DNA of 35,609 nt from the IMG/VR virus record IMGVR_UViG_3300049825_000947, positions 1 to 35,609 of that record; one strand, given 5' to 3'. The translations under genes were made by a program, and so were the position numbers. The DNA is from a virus. Below, piece by piece: positions 3,329-28,493 of the stretch; position 1 is the stretch's first letter, and the number at the start of each line of letters is the position of its first letter. The notes beneath the pieces are model-generated. The model was not told the origin of the DNA. It saw only the letters and a list, made by a program, of their open reading frames with translations, and did no database searches.

Positions 3329-4705
3329 TTACTTATCATAAAAAGAAAGTATGTGAGCAATCACATCTATCGTCCAACCATTGCCTAGCATCTTATATCG
3401 TTGAGTATCGCTTAAATGATTTGTGTAATTATCAGGGACAGTTTGTAATCGTTCACATTCAATTGGTGTTAATCTTCTTATATCTCCTTGTGAATAAACT
3501 ACATTTTGACCGCTCCCATCTTCTCTCGCTCTTGCTGGTATGGCTGCACCTTTTCCGCTCACTACTTCTCTAAAACCTTTTCCATCATTGTGGGTTCTTA
3601 AGGTTCCGCTAATAACTAAATTATCTTTTTGAACGCTTGTAAGACAATTAGTCTTCCCGTCGTTTCTTGGTTCAAGTTGTTGCTCGGTTGGTAGTCCAGA
3701 AACTCTACTCTTGGGATTGTCAGTATTTCGTCCACGCATTGCAAAACATTGAGTTTCTATTGCATTGGTATTTCCTGTGTCTAGGCAATAAGTTTTACCA
3801 TCATTTCTAGATAAATGACCAGTTCCGCCTTTGCCAGTTTTAGAACTTCTTGGCATTGTGTTGTGAACCACTAAATCCATTTGAGTGTGCAAACCGCCAC
3901 TATTACCTCCAGCGGTAAAGCATCTTGCCTTTCTATTGGTATCAGAAATATAATTATCTGCAGGAGCTATTTTGCCAATCCCTAGTCTTTCAAATGCTCT
4001 TTTTTGTAAATAACTCAACATTTTGTGGCTCAAGTAATATTTATCATCAACATCATTTTCTAAAATATCTTTCAATAATATTCCTTTGTCTTTTGGTTGA
4101 GGAATAGCGCAAACTAAATCGCCGAAAAAACCCGAAGGCTGACATCCTATATTTGTCCAATACAGTCTGTTCCTATTTTGTGCAGAAACTAGTGCGGAAT
4201 TTATTTTTATTGGATGGATTCCAATAGCTTTGGTTAGTATTTTTTGCCATTTTTCGCCCATGACTACATTTTCAAGAAGAAATTTAATTTTAGGGTTTAT
4301 TTCTCTCAATTCCTTTAGAACCCTCATGTATTCCCAAAACAAATAAGATTGTCCCTCAAATTCAAAGTTTTGACTCTTTAAATCGAGATAATGCTCTAGC
4401 GTAATTATTTCAATGTTATTTTTCGTGCTCATGCCTTTTCTTTTTCCACTAAAGGAAAAATTTTGACACGGAGACCCTCCTGCGATAATATCCACAAAGC
4501 CTAAATCTGAACCTTTTATATTCCTTACATCTCCAATTTGAATGGTGTTAGGAAAATTCGCCATAGTAACACCAATGGCATATTTATCTATTTCACTTGC
4601 GAAATATTTTGTTGGTTTAATTCCTAATTTATTTAATGCCAACTGGAAACAACTCATTCCATCAAATAAAGAACAGACAACAAGTTGTTTTGAATTATTG
4701 ATCAT
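3329..4705 (-). CDS. DNA (cytosine-5)-methyltransferase, phage type
   Basis: This 458-residue C5 methyltransferase uses S-adenosylmethionine to methylate cytosine in DNA. Motif I is SLFDGMSCFQLAL (about 12-24), motif IV is GGSPCQNFS with catalytic C80, motif VI is ENV (145-147), motif VIII is QNRNRLYW (about 176-183). Motifs IX/X are at the C-terminus (ECERLQTVPDNYT, MLGNGW). The target-recognition region between is long and repetitive, with NDGKTYCL, NDGKTNCL and NDGKGFRE. No restriction endonuclease lies nearby, so it is probably a solitary enzyme protecting phage DNA. It starts at an ATG overlapping the previous gene by 11 bp and ends just before a terminator. Confidence 0.95.
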   Translation of the reverse strand: MINNSKQLVVCSLFDGMSCFQLALNKLGIKPTKYFASEIDKYAIGVTMANFPNTIQIGDVRNIKGSDLGFVDIIAGGSPCQNFSFSGKRKGMSTKNNIEIITLEHYLDLKSQNFEFEGQSYLFWEYMRVLKELREINPKIKFLLENVVMGEKWQKILTKAIGIHPIKINSALVSAQNRNRLYWTNIGCQPSGFFGDLVCAIPQPKDKGILLKDILENDVDDKYYLSHKMLSYLQKRAFERLGIGKIAPADNYISDTNRKARCFTAGGNSGGLHTQMDLVVHNTMPRSSKTGKGGTGHLSRNDGKTYCLDTGNTNAIETQCFAMRGRNTDNPKSRVSGLPTEQQLEPRNDGKTNCLTSVQKDNLVISGTLRTHNDGKGFREVVSGKGAAIPARAREDGSGQNVVYSQGDIRRLTPIECERLQTVPDNYTNHLSDTQRYKMLGNGWTIDVIAHILSFYDK

Positions 4706-11369: not shown

Positions 11370-12554
11370 ATGACAACTAATTTCACTACTACAGAGAAAA
11401 AAAACTCTGTCAATTTATTTATTGATTATAAGCCCGCTGAAATTCAAAAAGGCAACAAAAATCAATGGTACATCGTTTATTACTGCAATAATCCATTTGC
11501 CCAAAAACTCCAAAGAGTAAGACACAGAGTGTCTAAAATAGAGCCAATAAGGGAAAGGGAACGATATGCCAAAAAAATCTGTTTAGAGATTAACGAAAAA
11601 CTATTGAGAGGGTGGAATCCTTTCTTAGAGGCCAAAAACATTAAAAGACTATCAACCCTAGTCGAAGTTATTGATGCTTATGTTAAAAGTAAAGAACGGG
11701 ACAAAAAATCTGATTCCATTCGACAAGACACATTAAGGTCATACACTTCTTTTGCTAATCTTTTTAAAAACTGGCTCACAAAAAACAATTATATAAATTA
11801 TTATACGACTCAATTTGATAGAAAACTAGTCGCAAATTACTTGGACTATATTTATGTTGAAAAAGAATTGAGTGCAAGAACGCATAACAATCATTTAAGC
11901 TGGATAAAAAATTTTGGCAAACATTTAGTAGGTAAAAGTTATATCAGCGTAAATCCTGTTGACGATAATTTTAAAAATATGAGAGTTGGCCAAAAGCAAA
12001 GGGAATGCATTAAAGAAGACGCACTTTTAGACCTATCGAATCACGTTAAAAAATTTAATTTAAATTATTGGTTGCTTTGCCAATTCACCTTTTCACTTTT
12101 TATTAGAAGAACCGAAATAACAAAACTTAAGGTTGAGAACGTATTTTTGAAAGAAGGTTATATTTTAATTTCTAGTAACATTTCAAAAAATAGAAAGGCA
12201 GAACCCGTAACAATAGCCAATGAACTAATTCCGTTTATCGTTGATCATATTAAATACGCCAGAAATGACGACTACATTTTCTCGGCAAACAATTTTGAAT
12301 CGGGTCCAACAATTTTAAAACCTAAAAAAATATCAGATTTCTGGTTAAAGTTAAAAAAAGAACTCAAACTACCTAAGTCTTACCAGTTTTATTCACTGAA
12401 AGACACGGGTATAACAAAGCTTCTAAACGATGGACTTCCTTCCATAAAAGTTAGAGACCAGGCTCGACATAGCCATTTGTCTACAACCGAGAAGTACACC
12501 TCTAGAAATAAAGGAAGGGATAGTGCAATAGCACTAAGGAGTAAATTATTCTAA
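11370..12554 (+). CDS. int: Tyrosine-type site-specific integrase
   Basis: This 394-residue protein is a phage integrase of the Bacteroidetes type. Residues about 10-90 form an Arm-binding domain (NQWYIVYYCNNPFA), about 95-200 a SAM-like core-binding domain, and the rest the catalytic domain. FIRRTEITKLK carries catalytic R246/R247 and K273 or K276 follows in SKNRK. Box II has YSLKDTG (342-347), replacing the classical HxxR, and ARHSHLSTTEKYT carries H367/H369 and nucleophile Y376. The Lys substitution in box II is seen in many Bacteroidetes integrases. It starts right after the candidate attP and converges, with 9 bp overlap, on the leftward tail gene. Confidence 0.92.
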   Translation: MTTNFTTTEKKNSVNLFIDYKPAEIQKGNKNQWYIVYYCNNPFAQKLQRVRHRVSKIEPIRERERYAKKICLEINEKLLRGWNPFLEAKNIKRLSTLVEVIDAYVKSKERDKKSDSIRQDTLRSYTSFANLFKNWLTKNNYINYYTTQFDRKLVANYLDYIYVEKELSARTHNNHLSWIKNFGKHLVGKSYISVNPVDDNFKNMRVGQKQRECIKEDALLDLSNHVKKFNLNYWLLCQFTFSLFIRRTEITKLKVENVFLKEGYILISSNISKNRKAEPVTIANELIPFIVDHIKYARNDDYIFSANNFESGPTILKPKKISDFWLKLKKELKLPKSYQFYSLKDTGITKLLNDGLPSIKVRDQARHSHLSTTEKYTSRNKGRDSAIALRSKLF

Positions 12555-16583: not shown

Positions 16584-19500
16584 CTATTGTTTTTTAACTT
16601 TTTTTTCTAAAAATTCTTGTTGTTCAATTTGTCGTCTCAATTCTTTTATTTCTCTCGGCGTGTTAGACAAATAGGCAATCACGCCGTTTCGCTCTAACAA
16701 CTCTAAAAAATTAGACATTTTATTTAACACTGGGACTAATGTTCCGTAGTCCATATTGGTGGAACTGAAATTGTCGTTTTTCACAACCGAGGTTTCTCCG
16801 CCTTGCATAAAAGAGGGTTTGCCTTGTCGTTTGGCTTCAATGTATTTTTCCATTCGGGCAATTTGTGGGTCTTGTCTCAACCATTTTGGAATAACATATT
16901 CATTGGCGTGTACAATTCCAGCCACTTCGTGTCCTGTGTTGTCCGTAAAACCCAATCCATTGGTGGGCCCACCCATAAAAAAAGAAGGAGGCTCAGGTTT
17001 GTTTGCATTAATTGCTGCAATTTGTAGTGCTCCTTGTGCTAATGCTAATGCACCTGCCCATAAGCCGAAAGGAACACCACCTGCGTTCATAGTAGAAGTA
17101 ATAACATTTGAAGCTACATTTGCAATTGTCTGTCTCAACCTCATTTTGTGATCCTCCTTTGCTTGTTTGTATTTTATTTCTGCCTCTTTCTTTTTGCTCT
17201 CTTCGTCGAGTTGCTCCATTTTGGCTTTGTACTGTGCTTGAGAAATAATGCCTTTATTCAGTTGGTCGAGCAAGGCTTTCTTTTTTCCGTTTTGAGCTTT
17301 GTTAAATGTATTTAGTTCCGCTTCGGCGTTTTTTCTATTGGCTTGGTAAAACATATCCCAAGCATTTGACAACAAAGTTATTCCTGTTGCTACTGCCTCT
17401 AATTTTTCTTTTTCTGTATCTAATTTATCATAGGTGTCCTCTAATTGTTTCGCAGAAAATCCAAAAACATCTATTTTGGACAAATCTTGTCCATTGTTTG
17501 GTTTTTCGTCCTGTGGCAAATTGATATTGGAAATATCCACACCCAGTTCTGATAACTTTAATTTGTACTCATCTATAATTTCTTGTAATTTACTTTGTGT
17601 GGCTTCATCTAAAGGTTGGGTGGTGTCGTTTTTGGTGGCTTCTATTTGGGTTACCAACTCTTCTAAATGCTGTTTTTCCTGCTCCAGCCTTTCTAAATTT
17701 TGCTGCTTTTTTATTTCTGTGATTCCCTCCTCTAGTGTTTTTATTTTTGAGGTTTCCGCTACACCATATTTTTCTTTTAATAGTTTTTTAGCGTCCTCCA
17801 ACGACCCTATACTTGCCAATTCATTGTTTTGGTTGGTTTGCAGGATTTTTAACAATCGGCTATTTTGTAGTTCCTTTTTGTTGAATTCTTCCAGTTTATA
17901 CTTGTTTACAATCGCTCCTTTGTTGAACAGATAAGTATCCTCTACTGCGGTTAACTTTTTGTTGTGAGCCTCTAAGATGCTTTCTTTTTCTTTGAGTAGG
18001 GCATTTATCTGTGCTTTTTCTGTTTTTTCGGTGGTTTTGGCTAACTCGTCTTTAAGTTTTAGGATACTCGAATTTTCCTCTGTAATAGCAAACAGAATTT
18101 CTGATTTTTTCTTTTCATGGCTTTGTTTTAGCTGGTCTAATTCTTTTTGCTCACTTTCACTTCTAATGCTCAGCTTTTCATTTTCCAATTCAAATTCCAA
18201 ATCTCGCAGTTCTTTGATTGCTTTTTGCCTGTCTGCTTCGTAGTCATGTTTTTCTTTTTCTTTGTTAGTTTCAGGTAGTCCTGGTTCAGTTGGTGGGTCT
18301 ACAGGGTCTTTACCCATTCCTTTTTTGGTTAAAACCAACAACTCACTGTATAGTTTGTTTTTTGTTCTTATAGTGGTATTTAATTCCTCTGTTTTTCTAT
18401 TTGCGTTATCTATCCAATACGATCTGGCATTATTAACAAAATCATCATATTCTTTTCCTGTTAACTTGGCTTCTTCTGCTAATTTTTTGGCTGCAGAAAT
18501 TGCTTCTTTTAATGTTTTGTATTCGGATTTACCAAATATAGAGTTACTTAACCTTTGGAATGGATTATTTTCAAAATCACTAAGCGATTTCTTTTCTATA
18601 TCTGATTTTTCTTGGTCTAAACTGGTTATTTTATCTGCAATAGCTTTTGCCCTGGCGTTGTCTAATAAATTTTTAGTATAAGCTTTAACAGCTTCTGATG
18701 CCATTTTAGTATTGATGTTTTCTAAATTCAAAAATTTCAAATGTTCTGGTGAAATTTCATTCATTTTTTTAATTGCATCCAACCGCTCTTTTTTAGAGTT
18801 TGTTTCGTCTTTAGCTATCTTAAATAATTTTTCAATCTCTAATCTTTCTGATGCTGTTTGTTTTTTCGCCTCGTTTAGAGTATCATTAAAAGCCCTTTGG
18901 TTGGCAGCTGCTTGAGAAGTGCTTTTAGAAAATAGATAATATGCTGCAACTGCACCACCAACAAGAGCAGCAACGGCACCAAAAGGAGTGGACAGCATAG
19001 TTAGTTTGAGTACAGTCATGGCACGGCTAACCATTCCCAAATTAAATGTTAAAACCCCTAAAGCTGTATAATATAAGATTGAAGCAGCTGTTGTGGCTAT
19101 GGTAGCAACTCTTGACGCATTTTGGGCTACGGCTTTTAAAGATTCACTGGCAGTTGCCCTTGTATTCCATAGTTCAATAAGAGCTAACGCTGTTTTATAA
19201 GAAACCAAAGCCGTTAGGGTTATTCCAATTAATTTACCCACAAAAGCCACCTTTTCAGTAAATCTTTGTTGCTCTTCATTTAATAATCTCGTTGGATTAA
19301 TTATGTTTAATAAAGTAACACCCAATTTTAACAACCATTTTATTGAACCACTTAATACACCATTACCAGAATCAGCACTCAAAATCATAGCATCCCAGGC
19401 AGCACTTAATTTTTTAAACTGCCCACTCAAAGAATCCATTTTTTTGTCGGCTAAATCCTGCAAGGCATTACCTTGATTGGTTACTGCCGCCGTATATTCT

Positions 19501-20471
19501 TTTATTTTATCTCTATTTTTGGCTAGAACAAGCACTTGTGTAGCATTTTCAGAACCAAACATTTTACCTGCCGCTACTACTGGATCATAACTTTTGGCTA
19601 CTTTATCAAGTGCTTGGCTATAAGTAAGTCCCATTTCAGCAGATTTCAAAAACAGGTTACGAATTGCAACCCCACCCGATTCGGCACGAATACCATTATC
19701 TCTAAGCAAACCGAACAATGCGCTAGATTCTTCTAAGGAAACATTTAATGCCTTTGAAGCTGCAGCAAATTTTGGTAAAGCAATTTGAAAATCATCAAAT
19801 CCTGCGGCTGTTTTATTGGCAGATGCTGCCAAAACATTCATTATACGGTCTGTATCTTTCGCTTCTAAGCCAAAAGCGTTCATTGTAGCGGCAGATAATT
19901 CAGCCACAGCAGGAATTTCAGAACCAAAAGCGGTTGCACCAAGTATAATTTGATCAAAAGACTCTTTTATTTGTTCGTTAGAAAAACCCAGTTTAGATAA
20001 TTCAACCCCTGCCTTTGCTATATCAACAGCCGTAAATTGGGATTGAGTGCTTAAATCAATAAACATTTGCTTCATATCTCCCAGTTCACTTTTAGCCATG
20101 CCCGTAACCCCAGCAAATTCAGACATAGCCAAATCAAAATCCTTTATTACTTGTATGCCCTTGCCAACAGCACTAAAAATTGAAGATATAGCAACATAGC
20201 CAGACAATGCAGTTCCTAAACCACCAATAGCTCCTTTGATTTTATCGAATAGTGTTGGTATGCCAGTAATTTCGGAACGCATTCTTTTGTACTCTCCGTT
20301 GAGCGTTCGCAGTTGTTTCACTTTTTCGTTAAAACTGGGGTCTGTGTTTTCTAAATTTCGTAATTCTCGGTTTAATTGAGCCGCTGTTTTACCAACTGTT
20401 GCCAAATTGTTTTTGACCTCCGTTCCATTGATTGAAACCAGTATTTTGTGAATCGTTTGTTTATCAGCCAT
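16584..20471 (-). CDS. Phage tail tape measure protein
   Basis: The 1295-residue protein is the longest in the window, as expected for a tape measure setting tail length. The N-terminal third is the TP901-type tape measure domain: KGIQVIKDFDLAMSEFAGVTGM, SKLGFSNEQIKESF, and ADKKMDSLSGQFKKL. A hydrophobic stretch at about 400-520 has several likely membrane-active helices (ALVSYKTALALIELW, GALAALV-type runs). The middle is a long charged coiled coil (ELRDLEFELENEKL), and a second hydrophobic stretch lies near residue 1160. Its length predicts a tail of roughly 190 nm. It is read from ATG 20471, overlapping the gp10-like gene by 8 bp. Confidence 0.95.
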   Translation of the reverse strand: MADKQTIHKILVSINGTEVKNNLATVGKTAAQLNRELRNLENTDPSFNEKVKQLRTLNGEYKRMRSEITGIPTLFDKIKGAIGGLGTALSGYVAISSIFSAVGKGIQVIKDFDLAMSEFAGVTGMAKSELGDMKQMFIDLSTQSQFTAVDIAKAGVELSKLGFSNEQIKESFDQIILGATAFGSEIPAVAELSAATMNAFGLEAKDTDRIMNVLAASANKTAAGFDDFQIALPKFAAASKALNVSLEESSALFGLLRDNGIRAESGGVAIRNLFLKSAEMGLTYSQALDKVAKSYDPVVAAGKMFGSENATQVLVLAKNRDKIKEYTAAVTNQGNALQDLADKKMDSLSGQFKKLSAAWDAMILSADSGNGVLSGSIKWLLKLGVTLLNIINPTRLLNEEQQRFTEKVAFVGKLIGITLTALVSYKTALALIELWNTRATASESLKAVAQNASRVATIATTAASILYYTALGVLTFNLGMVSRAMTVLKLTMLSTPFGAVAALVGGAVAAYYLFSKSTSQAAANQRAFNDTLNEAKKQTASERLEIEKLFKIAKDETNSKKERLDAIKKMNEISPEHLKFLNLENINTKMASEAVKAYTKNLLDNARAKAIADKITSLDQEKSDIEKKSLSDFENNPFQRLSNSIFGKSEYKTLKEAISAAKKLAEEAKLTGKEYDDFVNNARSYWIDNANRKTEELNTTIRTKNKLYSELLVLTKKGMGKDPVDPPTEPGLPETNKEKEKHDYEADRQKAIKELRDLEFELENEKLSIRSESEQKELDQLKQSHEKKKSEILFAITEENSSILKLKDELAKTTEKTEKAQINALLKEKESILEAHNKKLTAVEDTYLFNKGAIVNKYKLEEFNKKELQNSRLLKILQTNQNNELASIGSLEDAKKLLKEKYGVAETSKIKTLEEGITEIKKQQNLERLEQEKQHLEELVTQIEATKNDTTQPLDEATQSKLQEIIDEYKLKLSELGVDISNINLPQDEKPNNGQDLSKIDVFGFSAKQLEDTYDKLDTEKEKLEAVATGITLLSNAWDMFYQANRKNAEAELNTFNKAQNGKKKALLDQLNKGIISQAQYKAKMEQLDEESKKKEAEIKYKQAKEDHKMRLRQTIANVASNVITSTMNAGGVPFGLWAGALALAQGALQIAAINANKPEPPSFFMGGPTNGLGFTDNTGHEVAGIVHANEYVIPKWLRQDPQIARMEKYIEAKRQGKPSFMQGGETSVVKNDNFSSTNMDYGTLVPVLNKMSNFLELLERNGVIAYLSNTPREIKELRRQIEQQEFLEKKVKKQ

Positions 20472-20826
20472 TATTCTTAGTTTTTATTAAAGCACCAAAT
20501 TCAATAGACCATAATGCCGATAATTGTGCTGCCAATTCAAACGGAATGTTTCCCACAGCCTTAGAAATATGTTCTTTGGGTGGAGAAACATACACCTTTC
20601 CGCTTTTATACTCTCTTGTATAACCATAATGTTGTATGAAAGAGTATTTGGGTCCTTTTAATATTAACCTTACATTACCAAAAGCATTTGTTTTTGATAA
20701 AACAACGGATTTACTTAACGCTCCACTTCTTCTTTCAAAAGTAGAACTGATTTCATTTCTAATATTAGATTGAATGATTTTTGCTGCAATTTGAGATAAG
20801 GCTTTTTCTTGAATCAATTTATTCAT
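20464..20826 (-). CDS. HK97 gp10-like / tail completion protein (120 aa)
   Basis: The ATG at 20826 (MNKLIQEKALSQIAAK) is preferred over a TTG at 20850 because it lies 38 nt after a GTCC late box, as other late genes do. The segment FERRSGALSKSVVLS followed by GPKYSFIQHYGYTREYKSG resembles HK97 gp10-family tail completion proteins, in which an R-x-G-x-L-x-x-S turn is followed by a short beta strand with HYG. It lies directly before the tape measure, with which it overlaps, consistent with a tail-completion or tube-initiation role. The family link is by pattern only. Confidence 0.6.
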   Translation of the reverse strand: MNKLIQEKALSQIAAKIIQSNIRNEISSTFERRSGALSKSVVLSKTNAFGNVRLILKGPKYSFIQHYGYTREYKSGKVYVSPPKEHISKAVGNIPFELAAQLSALWSIEFGALIKTKNNG

Positions 20827-20830
20827 ACCA

Positions 20831-20872
20831 CAAATTTGCAGTAAGCACAAGCCAAAAAAAAGGACAAAAAAA
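20831..20872 (-). promoter_or_regulatory. Candidate late promoter (GTCC box) for the tape measure operon
   Basis: Read leftward, TTTTTTTGTCCTTTTTTTT (20854-20872) is followed 29 nt later by CAAATTTG (20831-20838), a weak -7 match, with the ATG at 20826 only 4 nt further on. The GTCC-to-ATG distance is 38 nt, as at two other late starts (39 and 40). It lies right after the terminator of the SecB-like operon, so it would restart tail-gene transcription downstream of the island. Confidence 0.55.
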
Positions 20873-20895
20873 CGGACAAAGAATGTCCGTTTTGT
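20868..20895 (-). terminator. Terminator closing the HEPN-SecB operon
   Basis: AAACGGACA (20870-20878), loop AAGAA and TGTCCGTTT (20884-20892) form a perfect 9-bp stem. Read leftward it is followed by a T-run (TTTTTTT) that overlaps the next late box. It starts about 28 nt after the SecB-like stop codon (20923). T-rich sequence on the other side would allow some rightward termination too, but no rightward gene reads into it. Confidence 0.85.
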
Positions 20896-20922
20896 TTCTT
20901 ATGAAAATAAATTAATTATGAA

Positions 20923-21336
20923 TTAAGAAGAATGCGTGAAATTTACTGGACTGAGTAAGATTAAACCTAATCCAGCTTTAGAAGAAAGACTAGAAAGATG
21001 CTCTCTTATATAGGGGAAAATAATTGCAGCCCCATTAACTCGACCAAATTGGTCTAAGTCTGTAATTTCAGTTTCACCTATTTTTTCAAAAATACCAGCC
21101 ATAATTATGGTACAGCTGACTTCTTGAATTTCATTAAATGATTGGGTATAGTCTAGTTTCTCGGTAACAAAAATAATATTATCTTTAACTTGTACAGTTA
21201 CATTGATATTTATGTTTTTACTTATCTTATCGTTATTAAATGTAACATTTGGCACTCGGTTAAAATTACTTTCTAGTAATATTAAATTATTTAACTTCAG
21301 ACCAGATTCAATTTGGTTGTTTTTATTTTCTTCCAT
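20923..21336 (-). CDS. SecB-like chaperone, candidate C component of a TAC system
   Basis: This 137-residue protein starts at ATG 21336, overlapping the upstream TAA by one base (TAATG). It follows the SecB pattern: an N-terminal strand region, then about 42-80 (NININVTVQVKDNIIFV, SCTIIMAGIFEKI), then NGAAIIFPYIREHLSSLSSKAG (about 101-122, split here for length: NGAAIIFPYIR and EHLSSLSSKAG) and LILLSPVNF at about 125-133. In E. coli SecB the matching parts are GGIF, ILFPYARE and LNLAPVNF. The C-terminal helix of classical SecB is missing. Housekeeping SecB does not sit in tail operons; SecB-like proteins on mobile DNA usually belong to toxin-antitoxin-chaperone sets. The terminator follows directly. 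Confidence 0.85.
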   Translation of the reverse strand: MEENKNNQIESGLKLNNLILLESNFNRVPNVTFNNDKISKNININVTVQVKDNIIFVTEKLDYTQSFNEIQEVSCTIIMAGIFEKIGETEITDLDQFGRVNGAAIIFPYIREHLSSLSSKAGLGLILLSPVNFTHSS

Positions 21337-21854
21337 TATGCAGCTAGAAAACAATTGTTAAAAATAAACGGCAAGTTTTGATTTTCAGACTTTAAAGCAT
21401 TTACAGAGCCTACAAATACTGTACTTTCTTCTACCTTTTGAATTAAAACACTATTAAATATTTCAATAGAAGAGGAAATACTATTTTCAATATTTAATTC
21501 CTTTGAGTCAAAAGTGGGTTCTGCTTGTATTACCAAATCATAATCAGCAATAGAAATAAAATTATTAAATTTAGAACCAACTAATTCAAAATCAACATTA
21601 TTAATGCCAATAATTGAATCATCTGTGAAAAAATAAATATTTTGATCAGGAAACAATTCTATAAATCTATCAGTTAAATTATTTTCCAAATCAATAAAAT
21701 TTTCATTTAGATAATAAGTTTGTTTCGGTATAACCTCAATACAATGAACATCTGCAGAAGAATCGTATTCATACCTAACACGAATTTCTGGAAACAATTC
21801 AATTAAATCCGTTAAAGATTTTTTTATAAAAGCCGTTGGATTATTCATATACAT
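21336..21854 (-). CDS. Unknown protein (172 aa) between HEPN and SecB-like genes, candidate antitoxin
   Basis: I do not recognise this 172-residue protein. The start ATG (MYMNNPTAFIKK) overlaps the HEPN stop by 10 bp, and its TAA overlaps the SecB-like ATG. The N-terminal half (about 1-95) is a compact alpha-beta region repeating a pattern: LIELFPEIRVRYEYD at about 17-31 and FIELFPDQNIYFFTD at about 64-78. The C-terminal part ends in a hydrophobic tail (NLPFIFNNCFLAA), which could be the kind of chaperone-addiction sequence a SecB-like partner binds. By analogy with HigBA-SecB and CmdTAC it may be the antitoxin or adaptor. It is acidic overall and low in Cys. Confidence 0.7.
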   Translation of the reverse strand: MYMNNPTAFIKKSLTDLIELFPEIRVRYEYDSSADVHCIEVIPKQTYYLNENFIDLENNLTDRFIELFPDQNIYFFTDDSIIGINNVDFELVGSKFNNFISIADYDLVIQAEPTFDSKELNIENSISSSIEIFNSVLIQKVEESTVFVGSVNALKSENQNLPFIFNNCFLAA

Positions 21855-22240
21855 TTTTTTAAAATATTTTGAGTAGACTTTGATAATCTAATTGATTGTT
21901 CGCTTTTATTGATGTCAATAGAAATATTATTGTAATCTGCATTTACTCTTAGTCTTTTCAATGCTATAATATCTTTATAGTATTGCCTTTCATTTTGAGA
22001 TTTATTTTTTATAAAACCTTTCATTTGATTTATTAAAACTTCGTGAGAACCTTTGTTAGCAATAACATTTAATTTTCTTAAATCGTCTTCTGATTTTTCC
22101 ATTGAATTTAACCATATATGTTTCATTAATTGGACACAACTATAATAAGCACAATGAATAACAGATGAATAAAAATTGTTTTTATGCAAAAATTCAGCGG
22201 CACTTAAATTCATTTCGGATTTATTTTTTAAATGCTCCAT
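21845..22240 (-). CDS. HEPN-domain protein (UPF0332-like), candidate toxin
   Basis: This 131-residue protein has the HEPN four-helix pattern: SAAEFLHKNNFYSSVIHCAY (13-32) followed by YSCVQLMKHI, and the late motif LKRLRVNADYNN (94-105). The R98-x-x-A-D-Y ending is that of UPF0332-type HEPN proteins; the classical R-x4-6-H of RNase HEPN toxins is not seen, so nuclease activity is uncertain. HEPN proteins are frequent toxins of toxin-antitoxin pairs. It is the first gene of a coupled operon with the 172-residue and SecB-like genes. The promoter TAACTTTG lies 10 nt before its ATG. Confidence 0.8.
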   Translation of the reverse strand: MEHLKNKSEMNLSAAEFLHKNNFYSSVIHCAYYSCVQLMKHIWLNSMEKSEDDLRKLNVIANKGSHEVLINQMKGFIKNKSQNERQYYKDIIALKRLRVNADYNNISIDINKSEQSIRLSKSTQNILKKCI

Positions 22241-22250
22241 AATTTTAATG

Positions 22251-22258
22251 CAAAGTTA
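22251..22258 (-). promoter_or_regulatory. Promoter -7 box of the HEPN-SecB operon
   Basis: Read leftward, TAACTTTG matches TAnnTTTG exactly, 10 nt before the HEPN ATG (22240). A TTTG occurs 26 nt further upstream, slightly longer than the usual -33/-7 spacing. The short leader means transcription would begin only a few bases before the ATG. It separates this operon from the upstream small-protein operon. Confidence 0.6.
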
Positions 22259-23663: not shown

Positions 23664-24734
23664 TCAGCTATATTTTGGTTTATCATTAGGAAATAAAGCA
23701 ATAAAATCTTCTTCTGTCAATACCTTTGTTTTTAAACTTTCTATTTGTTGTAATTTCTTAGGACCAGCATTCCTTCCTACAATAACATAATCCGTTTTAG
23801 ATGAGATTGATGTGTTTACATCCGCCCCAACATCATGTAGCCATTTAGCCATTTCATCCCTATATGGGAATTTTTCAAATATACCAGTAATAACAACTTT
23901 TTTAGAATTTAACAAATGATGTGAATCCACTTTTTGTGGTTCTTTATAAGAAGATTTAATTTGTTTTGATTTAAAAAATAAAATATCATCTTCACCTAGA
24001 CCTGGATTACTGGTTTTCAATCTTTTTTTTATATGAATGGTTTCATTTAAATACTTTATAACATCTAAAACACAAAAATCATAAAGATTTTGATGATTTG
24101 ATTTTAAGTGAGCATAACTCTTTAAATGAGAAGTAAAATATATCATATAAAACAATAAAATAGAGGTAATTAGTTCATTGTTATTATAAATTTCTACATG
24201 ATAATTGTAAAGTTTTTTAAAACCATGACAATTTTTACCAGCTCTTTCTATCATTAAATCAACATCTCCCACCCCCAACAAATCTGAGACATTCTTTTTG
24301 CTAGCTGCAATATATTGGTATTCATCAATAACTATATTTTCATTAAATGTGTCAGAATAAAGATTTGAATATTCAGAAGAATCAATTTCTTCATTATTAT
24401 TGTTTTGCATCATTTTTATATTTGAGTCTTTTTTAAAATTAACGGTATAAGTTTTAGCCTCCGATTTTATTGATTTTGCTTCTGAAATAGCCTCTAGTAA
24501 TTTTTTATTAGCTTGGTTAATAATTTCTTTGGATTTTTCTTCGGCATCTAAAACTCCTTGATATTTCTCCAACTTTGATTTTAAAACAGCTATTTCGTCA
24601 TGTTTGTTTTTTAAATTAGAAAAGGCGGTTCGTTCATTGCTTAAAGATTCTTTTAGTGTAATTATTTTCTTTTTATGATTTCTAGCCTCTATAATTAATA
24701 CAATCCATAATACTAACGATAATATCCAAGCCAT
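23664..24734 (-). CDS. Membrane-anchored BRCT-domain protein (356 aa)
   Basis: The protein starts with a likely N-terminal membrane anchor (MAWILSLVLWIVLIIEARNH, about 2-16) and then a coiled coil to about 95 (ERTAFSNLKNKHDEI, KLEKYQGVLDAEEKS). A helical centre of unknown type (about 140-240) follows. Residues about 275-347 form a BRCT domain like that of NAD-dependent DNA ligase: KKVVITGIFEKFPYRDEM, WLHDVGADVNTSIS, and KTDYVIVGRNAGPKKLQQ. BRCT domains bind DNA ends, phosphopeptides or poly(ADP-ribose). A BRCT domain behind a membrane anchor in a phage island is unusual; its role is unknown. Confidence 0.8.
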   Translation of the reverse strand: MAWILSLVLWIVLIIEARNHKKKIITLKESLSNERTAFSNLKNKHDEIAVLKSKLEKYQGVLDAEEKSKEIINQANKKLLEAISEAKSIKSEAKTYTVNFKKDSNIKMMQNNNNEEIDSSEYSNLYSDTFNENIVIDEYQYIAASKKNVSDLLGVGDVDLMIERAGKNCHGFKKLYNYHVEIYNNNELITSILLFYMIYFTSHLKSYAHLKSNHQNLYDFCVLDVIKYLNETIHIKKRLKTSNPGLGEDDILFFKSKQIKSSYKEPQKVDSHHLLNSKKVVITGIFEKFPYRDEMAKWLHDVGADVNTSISSKTDYVIVGRNAGPKKLQQIESLKTKVLTEEDFIALFPNDKPKYS

Positions 24735-24855: not shown

Positions 24856-25212
24856 TCAAATGCTATGCAAAAAAACATCGGCGGGTAGATTAAAAAAAGT
24901 TCTCAATTTACGAGCTGTTTTTAGCGTGATTTCTCTTTTTCCAGAAAGAACCGAAGAAACATGTCCTTTACTTCCAATAATGGGTTCTAATTCTTTGGAT
25001 TTCACACCCAATTCTTTCATTTTGTATCTTATAATCTCCAAGACATCTAGTTCTGGAAGTTGGTAATGCTTCTCGTCATAGTCTTTTATTAAAAGAACCA
25101 ATAAATTCAATTCGTCTGCTTCTGGTGTGTTGGGTTCTGCATTAAATATTTCCATCATACGAATGCTGGCCTTATTGTAATCTTCTTCTGTTTTTAATAT
25201 ATTCCAATTCAT
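24856..25212 (-). CDS. higA: HigA-type antitoxin
   Basis: This 118-residue protein is the antitoxin partner of HigB. The first half is helical and acidic (MEIFNAEPNTPEADELN, LLVLLIKDYDEKHYQLP), typical of COG5499 HigA. The C-terminal part is the HTH: VLEIIRYKMKELGVKSKELE, then PIIGSKGHVSSVLSGKREIT, then LRTFFNLPADVF. It binds and neutralises HigB and represses its own operon. The ATG at 25212 follows the HigB stop by 5 bp, in the toxin-first order usual for higBA. Confidence 0.9.
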   Translation of the reverse strand: MNWNILKTEEDYNKASIRMMEIFNAEPNTPEADELNLLVLLIKDYDEKHYQLPELDVLEIIRYKMKELGVKSKELEPIIGSKGHVSSVLSGKREITLKTARKLRTFFNLPADVFLHSI

Positions 25213-25217
25213 GATAC

Positions 25218-25544
25218 TTATTTTTTGTTGGTTAAAATTGTAGTATCAAACGATACTGTTTCTACATTAATTTTATCGTATTCTTTATGTGTTCCAAACC
25301 AAATCACATAACATGCGTTTTGGTTAAAGTTTAGTGAAACTACTAGTCTAAAATCATTTCCTTTGATATTAAAAACAACCCTGTTGGCGTTTACAATACT
25401 GGCGTTTTTATAAACGATTTTTAATTCATTGAAATTGTTGAATTCCAATTTAGAAAACTCATTACACCAAATCAATAAAGGCTTTTCTCCAATGGGATAT
25501 TTCTTAGTATAAAATAAAATTGTTTTTTTTACTAGCACTTTCAC
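25218..25544 (-). CDS. higB: HigB-type mRNA interferase toxin
   Basis: This 108-residue protein has the HigB pattern: NANRVVFNIKGNDFRLVVSL (about 52-71) and CYVIWFGTHKEYDKI (about 78-92), the conserved core of the RelE-fold ribosome-dependent mRNA interferases (HigB_toxin family). It cuts mRNA during translation when free of HigA. The start is GTG at 25544, only 4 nt after the -7 box (25549-25556), so the mRNA may be leaderless. The pair sits at the right end of the accessory island and probably stabilises the prophage. Confidence 0.93.
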   Translation of the reverse strand: MKVLVKKTILFYTKKYPIGEKPLLIWCNEFSKLEFNNFNELKIVYKNASIVNANRVVFNIKGNDFRLVVSLNFNQNACYVIWFGTHKEYDKINVETVSFDTTILTNKK

Positions 25545-25603: not shown

Positions 25604-26119
25604 TTACTGACAAGCCACAATCGTATCGAGCCAATCTTCTTGTTTGAGTGGAATAGGTTCGGGTGTTTCGAGGGTTATTTTAAATTCCATCCCACACAAA
25701 GACTGATTGGTTTCTAAAAAAAGTTCGTTGAAAGAAACATTGTCTTTTATGAAATTGCGATAGAGCCAAGAGAAATTTGGATTTTCGACCAGCGAGTCAT
25801 GGTTTATTCTTGACAAAACTTGGAACCCAATTTCTTCTGCTTGACCGATTAAATTGTATCGCTCGGCGTTGTCTCTTGGGTCGTTAGGTTGCATCAAAAT
25901 AGAAAAACCCACTTCTCTTTTGGCGATGGTTCGTTGCTTATTTGCGTTCAACCCACCTTCGTAGGCAAACAATACCAGCATGGGATAGTCGGGCGAATCG
26001 TAGGCACTGATTTTGTCCATCAATTCGTTGTAAGAAAAACCAACAAAACTTTTGATTTGTTTGTGGTTGGTGGCTAAATAGTTAAAATAGTCTAGGATTC
26101 CTTTGTATGTTAAATTCAT
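25604..26119 (-). CDS. Hypothetical phage structural protein, possible tail terminator or head-tail connector (171 aa)
   Basis: This 171-residue protein begins MNLTYKGILDYFNYLATN and contains SPDYPMLVLFAYEGGLN and REVGFSILMQPNDPRDNAER. The mix of a helical start and beta strands with a polar end is like small tail-terminator or neck proteins in siphophages. The ATG overlaps the upstream stop (ATGA). It is the last late gene before the accessory island, which separates it from the gp10-like and tape measure genes it would normally adjoin. Function is assigned from position. Confidence 0.6.
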   Translation of the reverse strand: MNLTYKGILDYFNYLATNHKQIKSFVGFSYNELMDKISAYDSPDYPMLVLFAYEGGLNANKQRTIAKREVGFSILMQPNDPRDNAERYNLIGQAEEIGFQVLSRINHDSLVENPNFSWLYRNFIKDNVSFNELFLETNQSLCGMEFKITLETPEPIPLKQEDWLDTIVACQ

Positions 26120-27443: not shown

Positions 27444-27959
27444 TTAATTTTTTTTTATCTGAAAGTGCATACCTTTTACTGGTTTATTGTTTTTAAGACC
27501 ATAATGTATTGTACTAATGCCAACACCTGTTACTCTACTTGCTTCAGAAATACCATTATATAAAATACCATTACAAGTTATTTCAATACTTCTATTATGT
27601 TCTTTACCGAATTTACCTTTATATGTTTGATTATTTACTTTAACCCCTCCATTTTCATAATGATGTTTCATGTTTTCCTTTGGTGTAACCCATTCTAAAT
27701 TATTTTTATGATTATTTAGTTTATTTCTGTCTTTATGATTTACTTGCTCTTTATTTTCAGGGTTACTGATAAAATATTTAGCCACCAATCTATGTACTAA
27801 ATAATTTTTTCTTTTTCCATTTGAAATATAAATTTGAACCAACAAATAAGGAGATGTACCTCCGTTTCTTAGTTTTTTTAATCCCTTTGTTTTTCTGTTT
27901 CTGACCTTACCAGTTTCAGAAACTTCATAATTTGTTTCTTCAATTTGACACCAACTCAT
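27444..27959 (-). CDS. HNH homing endonuclease with NUMOD domains
   Basis: The ATG at 27959 (MSWCQIEETNYEVSETGK) begins the NUMOD4 domain; the same frame is open further upstream, overlapping the endolysin end, but no residue there is conserved. NUMOD4 covers about 2-50, HNH (VNHKDRNKLNNHKNNLEWVT, with H75 and the N-terminal Asn pair) about 73-93, and a NUMOD1-like DNA-binding tail (GISEASRVTGVGISTIHYGL) about 136-155. It nicks or cuts DNA to spread its own gene. It sits as a free-standing gene between the endolysin and holin genes. No split gene or intron is visible. Confidence 0.9.
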   Translation of the reverse strand: MSWCQIEETNYEVSETGKVRNRKTKGLKKLRNGGTSPYLLVQIYISNGKRKNYLVHRLVAKYFISNPENKEQVNHKDRNKLNNHKNNLEWVTPKENMKHHYENGGVKVNNQTYKGKFGKEHNRSIEITCNGILYNGISEASRVTGVGISTIHYGLKNNKPVKGMHFQIKKN

Positions 27960-28008
27960 AATTTTATTATTTATTACTAATATAATCAAATTTACTGAAA
28001 GTGCGACA

Positions 28009-28473
28009 TTATATAGATGCAATTTCCATGTGCATACCATCTTTTCTTTTCCAATTTCCGCCCCATTCACAACCTGAATCTGTAAAACATTTCACGAAGC
28101 CACTACTTAATTTGGGAATTTGGTTTAATTGATTTTCAAAAGCATTGACATCAACAGCCAACGCCCAAGAGTGAAGCGACAAGGATTTTAGCCCTCTTTT
28201 GCTCCTAATCATAAAACAACCATCCCAAGTCTTCAATTCTTTTGAAAAGCCTCTACTAACCACATTTTTTAGCGATTTTTCTAGTACAGGTAAAAAGTCT
28301 TTATTGACAAATATCCTTTTAGGAAAACCAATTGTACCAACTGCCGAAAACCGAACATGACTAAATGCGTTTCTTATGTCCATTGGAACTTCCCAAATAA
28401 TAAAATGTTTGTTTTGGGTAGCCAATAAATTTGGGTCTCCGTATTTTTTTAAACATTGTGCTGATGTTATCAT
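28009..28473 (-). CDS. M15-family peptidase, endolysin
   Basis: The ATG at 28473 (MITSAQCLKKYGDPN) is preferred over a TTG at 28482. The 154-residue protein is an M15_4-type L-alanyl-D-glutamate or D-Ala-D-Ala peptidase. The zinc ligands are seen in SLHSWALAVDVN (H101, D108) and GNWKRKDGMHMEI (H148, with D145 as the catalytic base). It should cut cell-wall peptides at lysis. No signal peptide is present, so release depends on the holin. The stop is 50 bp before the HNH gene. Confidence 0.92.
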   Translation of the reverse strand: MITSAQCLKKYGDPNLLATQNKHFIIWEVPMDIRNAFSHVRFSAVGTIGFPKRIFVNKDFLPVLEKSLKNVVSRGFSKELKTWDGCFMIRSKRGLKSLSLHSWALAVDVNAFENQLNQIPKLSSGFVKCFTDSGCEWGGNWKRKDGMHMEIASI

Positions 28474-28493
28474 TTCTTTCAATTATTATAATT

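Follow-up and report, generated by a model that had tools for sequence, protein, structure and literature searches.

The virus record analysed here (IMG/VR record IMGVR_UViG_3300049825_000947; 35,609 bases, referred to below as the window) carries, next to its tail genes, a compact set of three genes on the minus strand. The first gene (21845–22240) encodes a HEPN protein of 131 residues, the presumed toxin. The second (21336–21854) encodes a 172-residue protein, called X in the following, which is the presumed chaperone-addicted antitoxin, and the third (20923–21336) encodes a CmdC-like, SecB-like chaperone of 137 residues counted from its ATG. The reading frames overlap by 10 bp (HEPN/X) and by 1 bp (X/SecB-like), in agreement with a preliminary description of this DNA, which regarded the trio as a candidate toxin–antitoxin–chaperone (TAC) module of a new type. 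The -7 box of Bacteroidota has the consensus TAnnTTTG, and a box of this type, TAACTTTG (22251–22258, minus strand), begins 18 nt upstream of the first ATG. The last gene is followed by an intrinsic terminator (20869–20893, minus strand) with a 5-nt loop and a T run, the perfect stem of which has 10 pairs and not the nine counted previously. The trio appears to have its own promoter-like box, as had been proposed, and its own terminator.

The same arrangement is found elsewhere. The SecB signature was searched as a DNA pattern of fixed spacing in viral contigs, and 20 stretches were returned, 13 of which were dropped as chance matches because of stop codons in the matched frame. Four of the seven stretches with an open SecB frame are HEPN–X–SecB trios. 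The other three comprise two contigs (L023 and L024) that carry another kind of SecB-like set and a third (L032) in which the frame adjoins a glutaredoxin-like gene and, from this neighbour, is read by us as that of an ordinary SecB of the export pathway. A profile built from five X proteins identified five relatives in viral contigs, namely those in the same four trio contigs and one in a new contig, L043, that also holds a full trio; a profile of six SecB proteins returned exactly these five contigs. All five X relatives are accompanied by both a HEPN and a SecB gene; the outcome that the preliminary description named as a refutation, X homologues that never occur with either partner, is thus contradicted by the relatives identified. 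Identities to the window proteins range from 29 to 46% for HEPN, from 25 to 33% for X, and from 31 to 48% for SecB.

The order toxin–antitoxin–chaperone, with spacings of -10 to +11 nt, is kept at all six loci, and within it HEPN would be the toxin and X the antitoxin. Because the same three-gene order occurs in five divergent contigs, the association is more than chance, and at the sequence level HEPN–X–SecB is a conserved module. A TAnnTTTG box lies within 150 nt upstream of the HEPN gene in every trio and within 47 nt in five of them; the motif is present in 6.6–12.9% of random 150-nt segments from the same sequences. All six known members come from contigs classed as viral by IMG/VR, although a part of these contigs may represent mobile DNA of another kind.

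The genes next to the trio vary between contigs; in L038 it is preceded by genes for a Y-family polymerase and an SRAP protein, and in L020 a tape-measure-like open reading frame (ORF) follows it. The G+C content of the trio is below that of both flanks at five of the six loci, most clearly in L020 (0.414 compared to 0.625 and 0.588), with L034 as the exception, which suggests, on base composition, that the trio has moved horizontally. The SecB family was not found in any of 13 viral records with related portal genes, several of which are short fragments, and the trio is therefore not part of the common gene complement of these phages. Another explanation, that these are unrelated neighbouring phage genes and that the SecB-like protein folds a virion protein, would fit the position of the trio alongside the window's tail genes. 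However, the same three genes lie together in six divergent contigs with differing surroundings, have in the window their own promoter-like box and terminator, and differ in G+C content from their flanks at all loci except L034. A chance neighbourhood was rejected on the basis of this recurrence, the box and terminator, and the G+C contrast, and we consider it highly improbable.

Other searches were negative. No relatives were identified in viral contigs when HEPN, X, SecB, or the portal served as a single query sequence, and scans of genome contigs with X and with the portal profile found none either; since these scans depend on exact short peptide patterns, absence from them is weak evidence. 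With tblastn, neither X nor SecB of the window gave a credible match among phages and plasmids, and the same was true of X of the L037 trio against phages and plasmids and of its HEPN protein against plasmids.

The HEPN assignment draws on both sequence and predicted structure. PF05168 matches all six HEPN proteins individually at E ≤ 1 (best value, 2.1e-5). The AlphaFold2 model of the window protein, with a predicted local distance difference test score (pLDDT) of 94.7, has AF0298 (PDB code 2hsb) as its best fold match, with a Z score of 17.2 over 117 aligned residues and a root-mean-square deviation (rmsd) of 1.8; the next row scores 14.4, and the caution level for helical folds in this comparison is approximately Z 13. 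The identity given in the preliminary description is supported by this match, with the Pfam score of the window protein falling just under its cut-off (see below). AbiV (9bj6) is a weak fold match, with a Z score of 7.9, below the caution level; its PDB title describes AbiV as an RNase of a two-component antiphage system.

The window protein contains GSH at residues 64–66 and RVNADY at residues 98–103, and the corresponding GxH and RxxxDY motifs are invariant in all six proteins. According to the portion of PMC3710099 that treats the AF0298-like and AbiV variant, the basic residue of the motif is kept, its histidine is replaced, and a conserved histidine lies N-terminal to it; the same source suggests this second histidine of AF0298-like proteins as an alternative, possibly active, site. 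In fold, the trio protein resembles the AF0298-type HEPN-T proteins, and it has in common with them and with AbiV that a second histidine stands in for the one of Rx4-6H. By analogy, the most probable activity of the HEPN protein is that of an AF0298/AbiV-type RNase in which an alternative histidine, H66, acts together with R98 in place of the classical Rx4-6H. The HEPN entries 9xbd and 9xbc, which cover the same motif region, differ by a tyrosine-to-phenylalanine change within the motif, and the motif tyrosine may for this reason have been probed by others; a literature search on the pair returned nothing relevant.

Protein X consists of two parts. In the AlphaFold2 model, calculated from a six-row alignment, residues 1–99 form an alpha-beta domain (pLDDT 73–92), and residues 100–172 are predicted to be a disordered tail, with pLDDT values of 31–40 per block in the model of the window member. 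Across the six-member alignment, neither the length nor the sequence of the tail is constant, and the only invariant columns after residue 84 are two terminal alanines. The E. coli ssrA tag ends in YALAA. All six X proteins end in -AA, and five of them in Y-x-x-A-A; the last five codons of the window gene (21339–21353, minus strand) encode CFLAA, an ssrA-like C-terminal degron by resemblance. An -AA end is found in 4 of 277 other ORFs, two of which share their last eight residues, in a comparison set of non-overlapping frames of at least 80 codons from 14 sequences that are mechanical calls and not annotated genes. Based on these features, the C-terminus of X is a putative ClpX-type degron, and X has the appearance of an antitoxin addicted to a chaperone. 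The earlier suggestion of a chaperone-addiction tail stands in this predicted form, but the region had been called a hydrophobic C-terminus, and a long tail, predicted to be disordered and with an ssrA-like end, is the more fitting description; the terminal LAA had not been remarked upon.

The relationships of X were sought at the levels of sequence and fold. The window protein had two Pfam matches only, at E values of 0.03–0.07, which are not credible, and no sequence match in the PDB. Foldseek returned no PDB match at E ≤ 0.001 and, among viral models, one uncharacterised phage protein of 90 residues (E 1.2e-4). In the structure comparison, a KH-like chain ranks first (KhpB/EloR; Z 8.6, 76 residues aligned to the N-terminal domain, rmsd 2.8). 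Antitoxins of the minimal nucleotidyltransferase (MNT) type are also among the matches, beside further folds, with HI0073 (1no5) at Z 7.9 over 84 residues (rmsd 2.8), 8xeh_E at Z 6.5 (88 aligned, rmsd 3.6), and 8xeo_B at Z 6.2 (83 aligned, rmsd 3.7), and these scores of 6.2–7.9 lie in the range rated by the tool as a common arrangement. The model is suggestive of a likeness to MNT antitoxins, and at least as much to KH-like domains.

The MNT matches raise the alternative that X is a degenerate MNT and the trio a HEPN–MNT system with an added chaperone. HEPN–MNT systems resemble the trio in pairing a HEPN gene with a small partner gene. They differ in that X matches no nucleotidyltransferase at the sequence level and carries a degron-like tail, and in that the trio adds a SecB gene. 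The MNT motif consists of G-S and a D-x-D pair, and no invariant G-S or D-x-D pair is present in X; in addition, nucleotidyltransferase Pfam families match none of the six X proteins at E ≤ 1, and the Z scores remain within the common-arrangement range, behind a KH-like chain. This origin is improbable in our estimate.

The KH-like match bears on a different alternative, in which the roles would be swapped: HEPN would be a catalytically dead RNA-binding or regulatory partner, and X the effector, folded by SecB. Besides the resemblance of the X domain to RNA-binding KH-like domains, the lack of Rx4-6H at its usual place in HEPN favors such an assignment. Against it, GxH and RxxxDY are invariant in all six proteins across identities of 29–46%, and in the described TAC systems, as far as the accessible text of PMC5105189, PMC11618068, and PMC8165232 covers them, the protein bearing the C-terminal tail is the antitoxin. 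An exchange of roles is, on balance, improbable.

The identity of the third protein as SecB-like, proposed at the outset, is confirmed by PF02556 (E 9e-10, 39 bits, above the cut-off) and, more specifically, by two PADLOC models of CmdC (PD-T4-9_C), which match all six trio SecB proteins (best value, 9.6e-16). A comparison with hhalign of the trio SecB with CmdC of a Vibrio phage gave a probability of 96.8%. The trio proteins stop 4–16 residues past the P-[VI]-N-F motif, compared to 21 in the ordinary-looking L032 protein. Since export SecB touches SecA partly via a C-terminal helix, as described in the available part of PMC6377645, these short ends are a weak hint, at the level of sequence, at a dedicated role.

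A second SecB-like set in viral contigs was noted in L023 (716–1497, minus strand) and also in L024. The L023 protein matches PF02556 (E 7.4e-18) and the PADLOC candidate model PDC-M64C (E 5.5e-5), and its gene follows one for a 117-residue protein that ends in DAA and has no Pfam match. The L023/L024 set is a possible other type of TAC.

Described TAC systems provide the frame in which these properties can be read. Within the sources as accessed, the toxin–antitoxin pairs of described systems are HigBA, HicAB, and MqsRA (PMC5105189) and CmdTA (PMC11618068, PMC9519451). CmdTAC (PD-T4-9) resembles the trio in the order toxin–antitoxin–SecB, in an unstructured antitoxin tail ending in -AA, and in the CmdC kind of SecB. 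Its toxin is an ADP-ribosyltransferase and the presumed toxin of the trio a HEPN protein; the PD-T4-9_A model matches none of the six HEPN proteins at E ≤ 0.1, but does match control L050. CmdA and X differ as well. X of the window, the one of six scanned, has no PD-T4-9_B match in PADLOC, the X profile aligned to CmdA with an hhalign probability of 0.3%, and X, unlike CmdA, has a predicted folded alpha/beta domain. CmdA itself varies widely, according to the part of PMC9519451 that was accessible; according to that of PMC11618068, its last residues are LAA and ClpP mediates its degradation. Comparison of the X profile with MqsA yielded nothing.

The HigBA–SecB system of M. tuberculosis and the HicAB and MqsRA TACs share with the trio a SecB-like third gene and a C-terminal chaperone-addiction extension on the antitoxin; their toxin and antitoxin families differ from those of the trio. 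In HigA1 of the tuberculosis system, a ClpX degron lies within the SecB-binding tail (PMC8165232, as far as its accessible text goes). The window has a HigBA pair of its own, a feature additional to the preliminary description, but a HigBA–SecB TAC was rejected as an interpretation, because the pair lies 2.6 kb from the trio with other genes between.

As controls, four phage records were considered that SecB of the L037 trio matches weakly (E 0.02–0.6), three of which hold other TAC sets; the fourth, L052, has no clear set. These phage-borne sets have the same gene order as the trio and similar antitoxin ends. In the CmdTAC of Vibrio phage 10N.286.54.F9_PE001, the antitoxin ends in GFAA. In the gut phage MT837118 (L051, 1258–2638, plus strand), a CmdT-like gene (PADLOC PD-T4-9_A, E 3.7e-5) is followed by a short ORF ending in VLVA and a SecB-like gene, and the set appears, by sequence, to be a divergent CmdTAC in an unannotated record. 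The third is in Klebsiella phage 2b LV-2017 (L053, 1137–2653, plus strand), also unannotated, with an ORF of 136 residues, an MqsA (PF15731, E 9e-17) ending in KQVA, and a SecB-like ORF. The first ORF matches no family, which leaves an MqsR identity unsupported, and the SecB-like ORF is weakly matched by the PADLOC CmdC model (E 4.9e-4) and by no Pfam family. This set in a named phage may be a TAC of the MqsRAC type.

Taken together, the trio has the anatomy of a TAC, with the three-gene order, a SecB protein as third component, a predicted unstructured chaperone-addiction (ChAD) tail, and a degron-like antitoxin end. We consider it likely, by analogy with described systems, that the trio is a tripartite TAC of a new type, carried as cargo next to the tail genes, in which an AF0298/AbiV-like HEPN protein is the toxin, X the antitoxin addicted to the chaperone, and SecB its guardian and perhaps a sensor of phage; the original proposal of a candidate TAC is thereby supported. 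The gene order, the conservation, the predicted folds, the tail and its terminal sequence, the promoter-like box, and the terminator are observations. Because five distant relatives keep the same plan, the trio is probably a genuine device for defence or addiction, of a known sort but in a new form. It is called new since no HEPN-based TAC was found in the portions available of the literature searched, which covered open-access articles, with subscription papers and preprints outside; the word HEPN does not occur in PMC4257090. The novelty is relative to the described HigBA, HicAB, MqsRA, and CmdTA systems.

Several points weigh against this interpretation. The support is computational throughout, and the module has six members only. 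Of the five relatives of the window trio, four were first found with the SecB pattern, and their link to SecB is in part built into the search; the scan with X found these four again and one new trio. The window HEPN protein scores 21.6 bits with PF05168 (E 2.6e-4), just below the 22-bit cut-off. In a six-frame search of the records with the same family, the L034 trio protein was missed and that of L020 fell below the cut-off, and Foldseek returned no match for the HEPN model at E ≤ 0.001, the ten best rows being mostly titled HEPN. The Rx4-6H motif is missing from its usual place in all six proteins. X resembles no known antitoxin by sequence in Pfam, among PDB sequences, or in the profile comparisons with CmdA and MqsA, and the window protein has cysteine rather than tyrosine at position -5 (C-F-L-A-A). 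Finally, a SecB tree of 11 rows did not resolve and had no starred branch, and the six trio proteins do not form one clade in it.

A working model can be built on the analogy with CmdTAC and the tuberculosis TAC, from which toxicity, neutralisation, ClpXP turnover, SecB binding, the trigger, and the defence function would be carried over. HEPN would be produced together with X and SecB, and the N-terminal alpha/beta domain of X would bind and silence it. The tail of X ending in -AA would be both the SecB-binding region and a ClpXP degron, and the SecB-like protein, by holding this tail, would keep X from ClpXP. If SecB were drawn off, most simply by an unfolded virion protein of an infecting phage, X would be degraded. 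A precedent is given in the accessible part of PMC11618068, according to which CmdC senses the T4 capsid protein. Loss of X would free HEPN to attack RNA or translation, and the infection would be aborted. By this logic, cells that lose the prophage would be punished as well.

A more specific version of this model is offered tentatively, with slightly less confidence than an even chance would warrant. It would make HEPN a chaperone-guarded RNase, X an antitoxin of a new family that carries its own ssrA-like degron and is maybe a worn-down MNT, and the phage-borne SecB a sensor of incoming virion proteins, so that a prophage would kill or arrest superinfected cells. Alternatively, the TAC mechanism may operate as described but serve prophage maintenance or stress control instead of anti-phage defence; upon gene loss, ClpXP would remove X, and HEPN would be freed in the cured cells. 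In favor of this, the trio is carried as cargo by a phage, possesses a promoter-like box and a terminator of its own, and shares its region with a HigBA pair; an integrase-like ORF suggests that the phage is temperate. The TACs that have been tested in E. coli, CmdTAC and MqsRAC, protect from phage, in the accessible account of PMC9519451, and maintenance and defence are not mutually exclusive. Maintenance or stress control in place of defence is rather unlikely, and defence by a chaperone-gated HEPN toxin remains the preferred reading.

The genomic setting of the trio fits a phage of Bacteroidota. The portal, the primase, the protease, and part of the tape-measure protein of the window are related to those of Polaribacter phage Leef_1 (42% identity for the portal), which makes a Flavobacteria-type host likely. 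The phage is probably a temperate phage of Bacteroidota, temperateness being suggested by the integrase-like ORF at 11370–12554, identified by reading. The trio lies in a cargo stretch bordered on one side by a Leef_1 gp03-like gene (25604–26119) and on the other by the neck gene (20464–20826) and the tape-measure gene (16584–20471). Besides the trio, the stretch contains a HigBA pair, a BRCT-domain protein, a small helix-turn-helix (HTH) regulator, and small unknown genes. The whole stretch is A+T-rich, with the lowest G+C content, 0.24–0.25, in segments covering the trio.

The HigBA pair (24856–25544, minus strand) is complete and separate from the trio, with HigB at 25218–25544 (minus strand; PF09907, E 1.1e-26) and HigA at 24856–25212 (minus strand; HTH_3). 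HigA ends in ...FLHSI, which is not degron-like, and the pair therefore looks like an ordinary two-gene system. The protein encoded at 23664–24734 (minus strand) has a BRCT domain at its C-terminus and, as judged by reading, a membrane-like segment at its N-terminus together with a coiled coil, a combination unexpected in a phage. Outside the cargo stretch, a long ORF at 3329–4705 (minus strand) is DNA cytosine methyltransferase-like, and one at 27444–28070 (minus strand), which overlaps an ORF at 28009–28482, is HNH/NUMOD homing-type endonuclease-like, both as judged by reading. A neighbour of another trio was also noted. In L043, a gene with a Panacea (SocA) antitoxin domain directly follows the trio (L046, 4490–4978, plus strand) and is itself followed by a small ORF with, by reading, a likely membrane segment; these two genes are possibly a second toxin–antitoxin pair at the same spot.

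If the proposed mechanism is correct, chaperone addiction would be a portable control layer that fits very different toxins, and a widespread superfamily of RNase toxins would be linked to SecB-based sensing of infection in phages of Bacteroidota. Should X in addition be a worn-down MNT, a HEPN–MNT system would have traded enzymatic neutralisation for chaperone-gated proteolysis.

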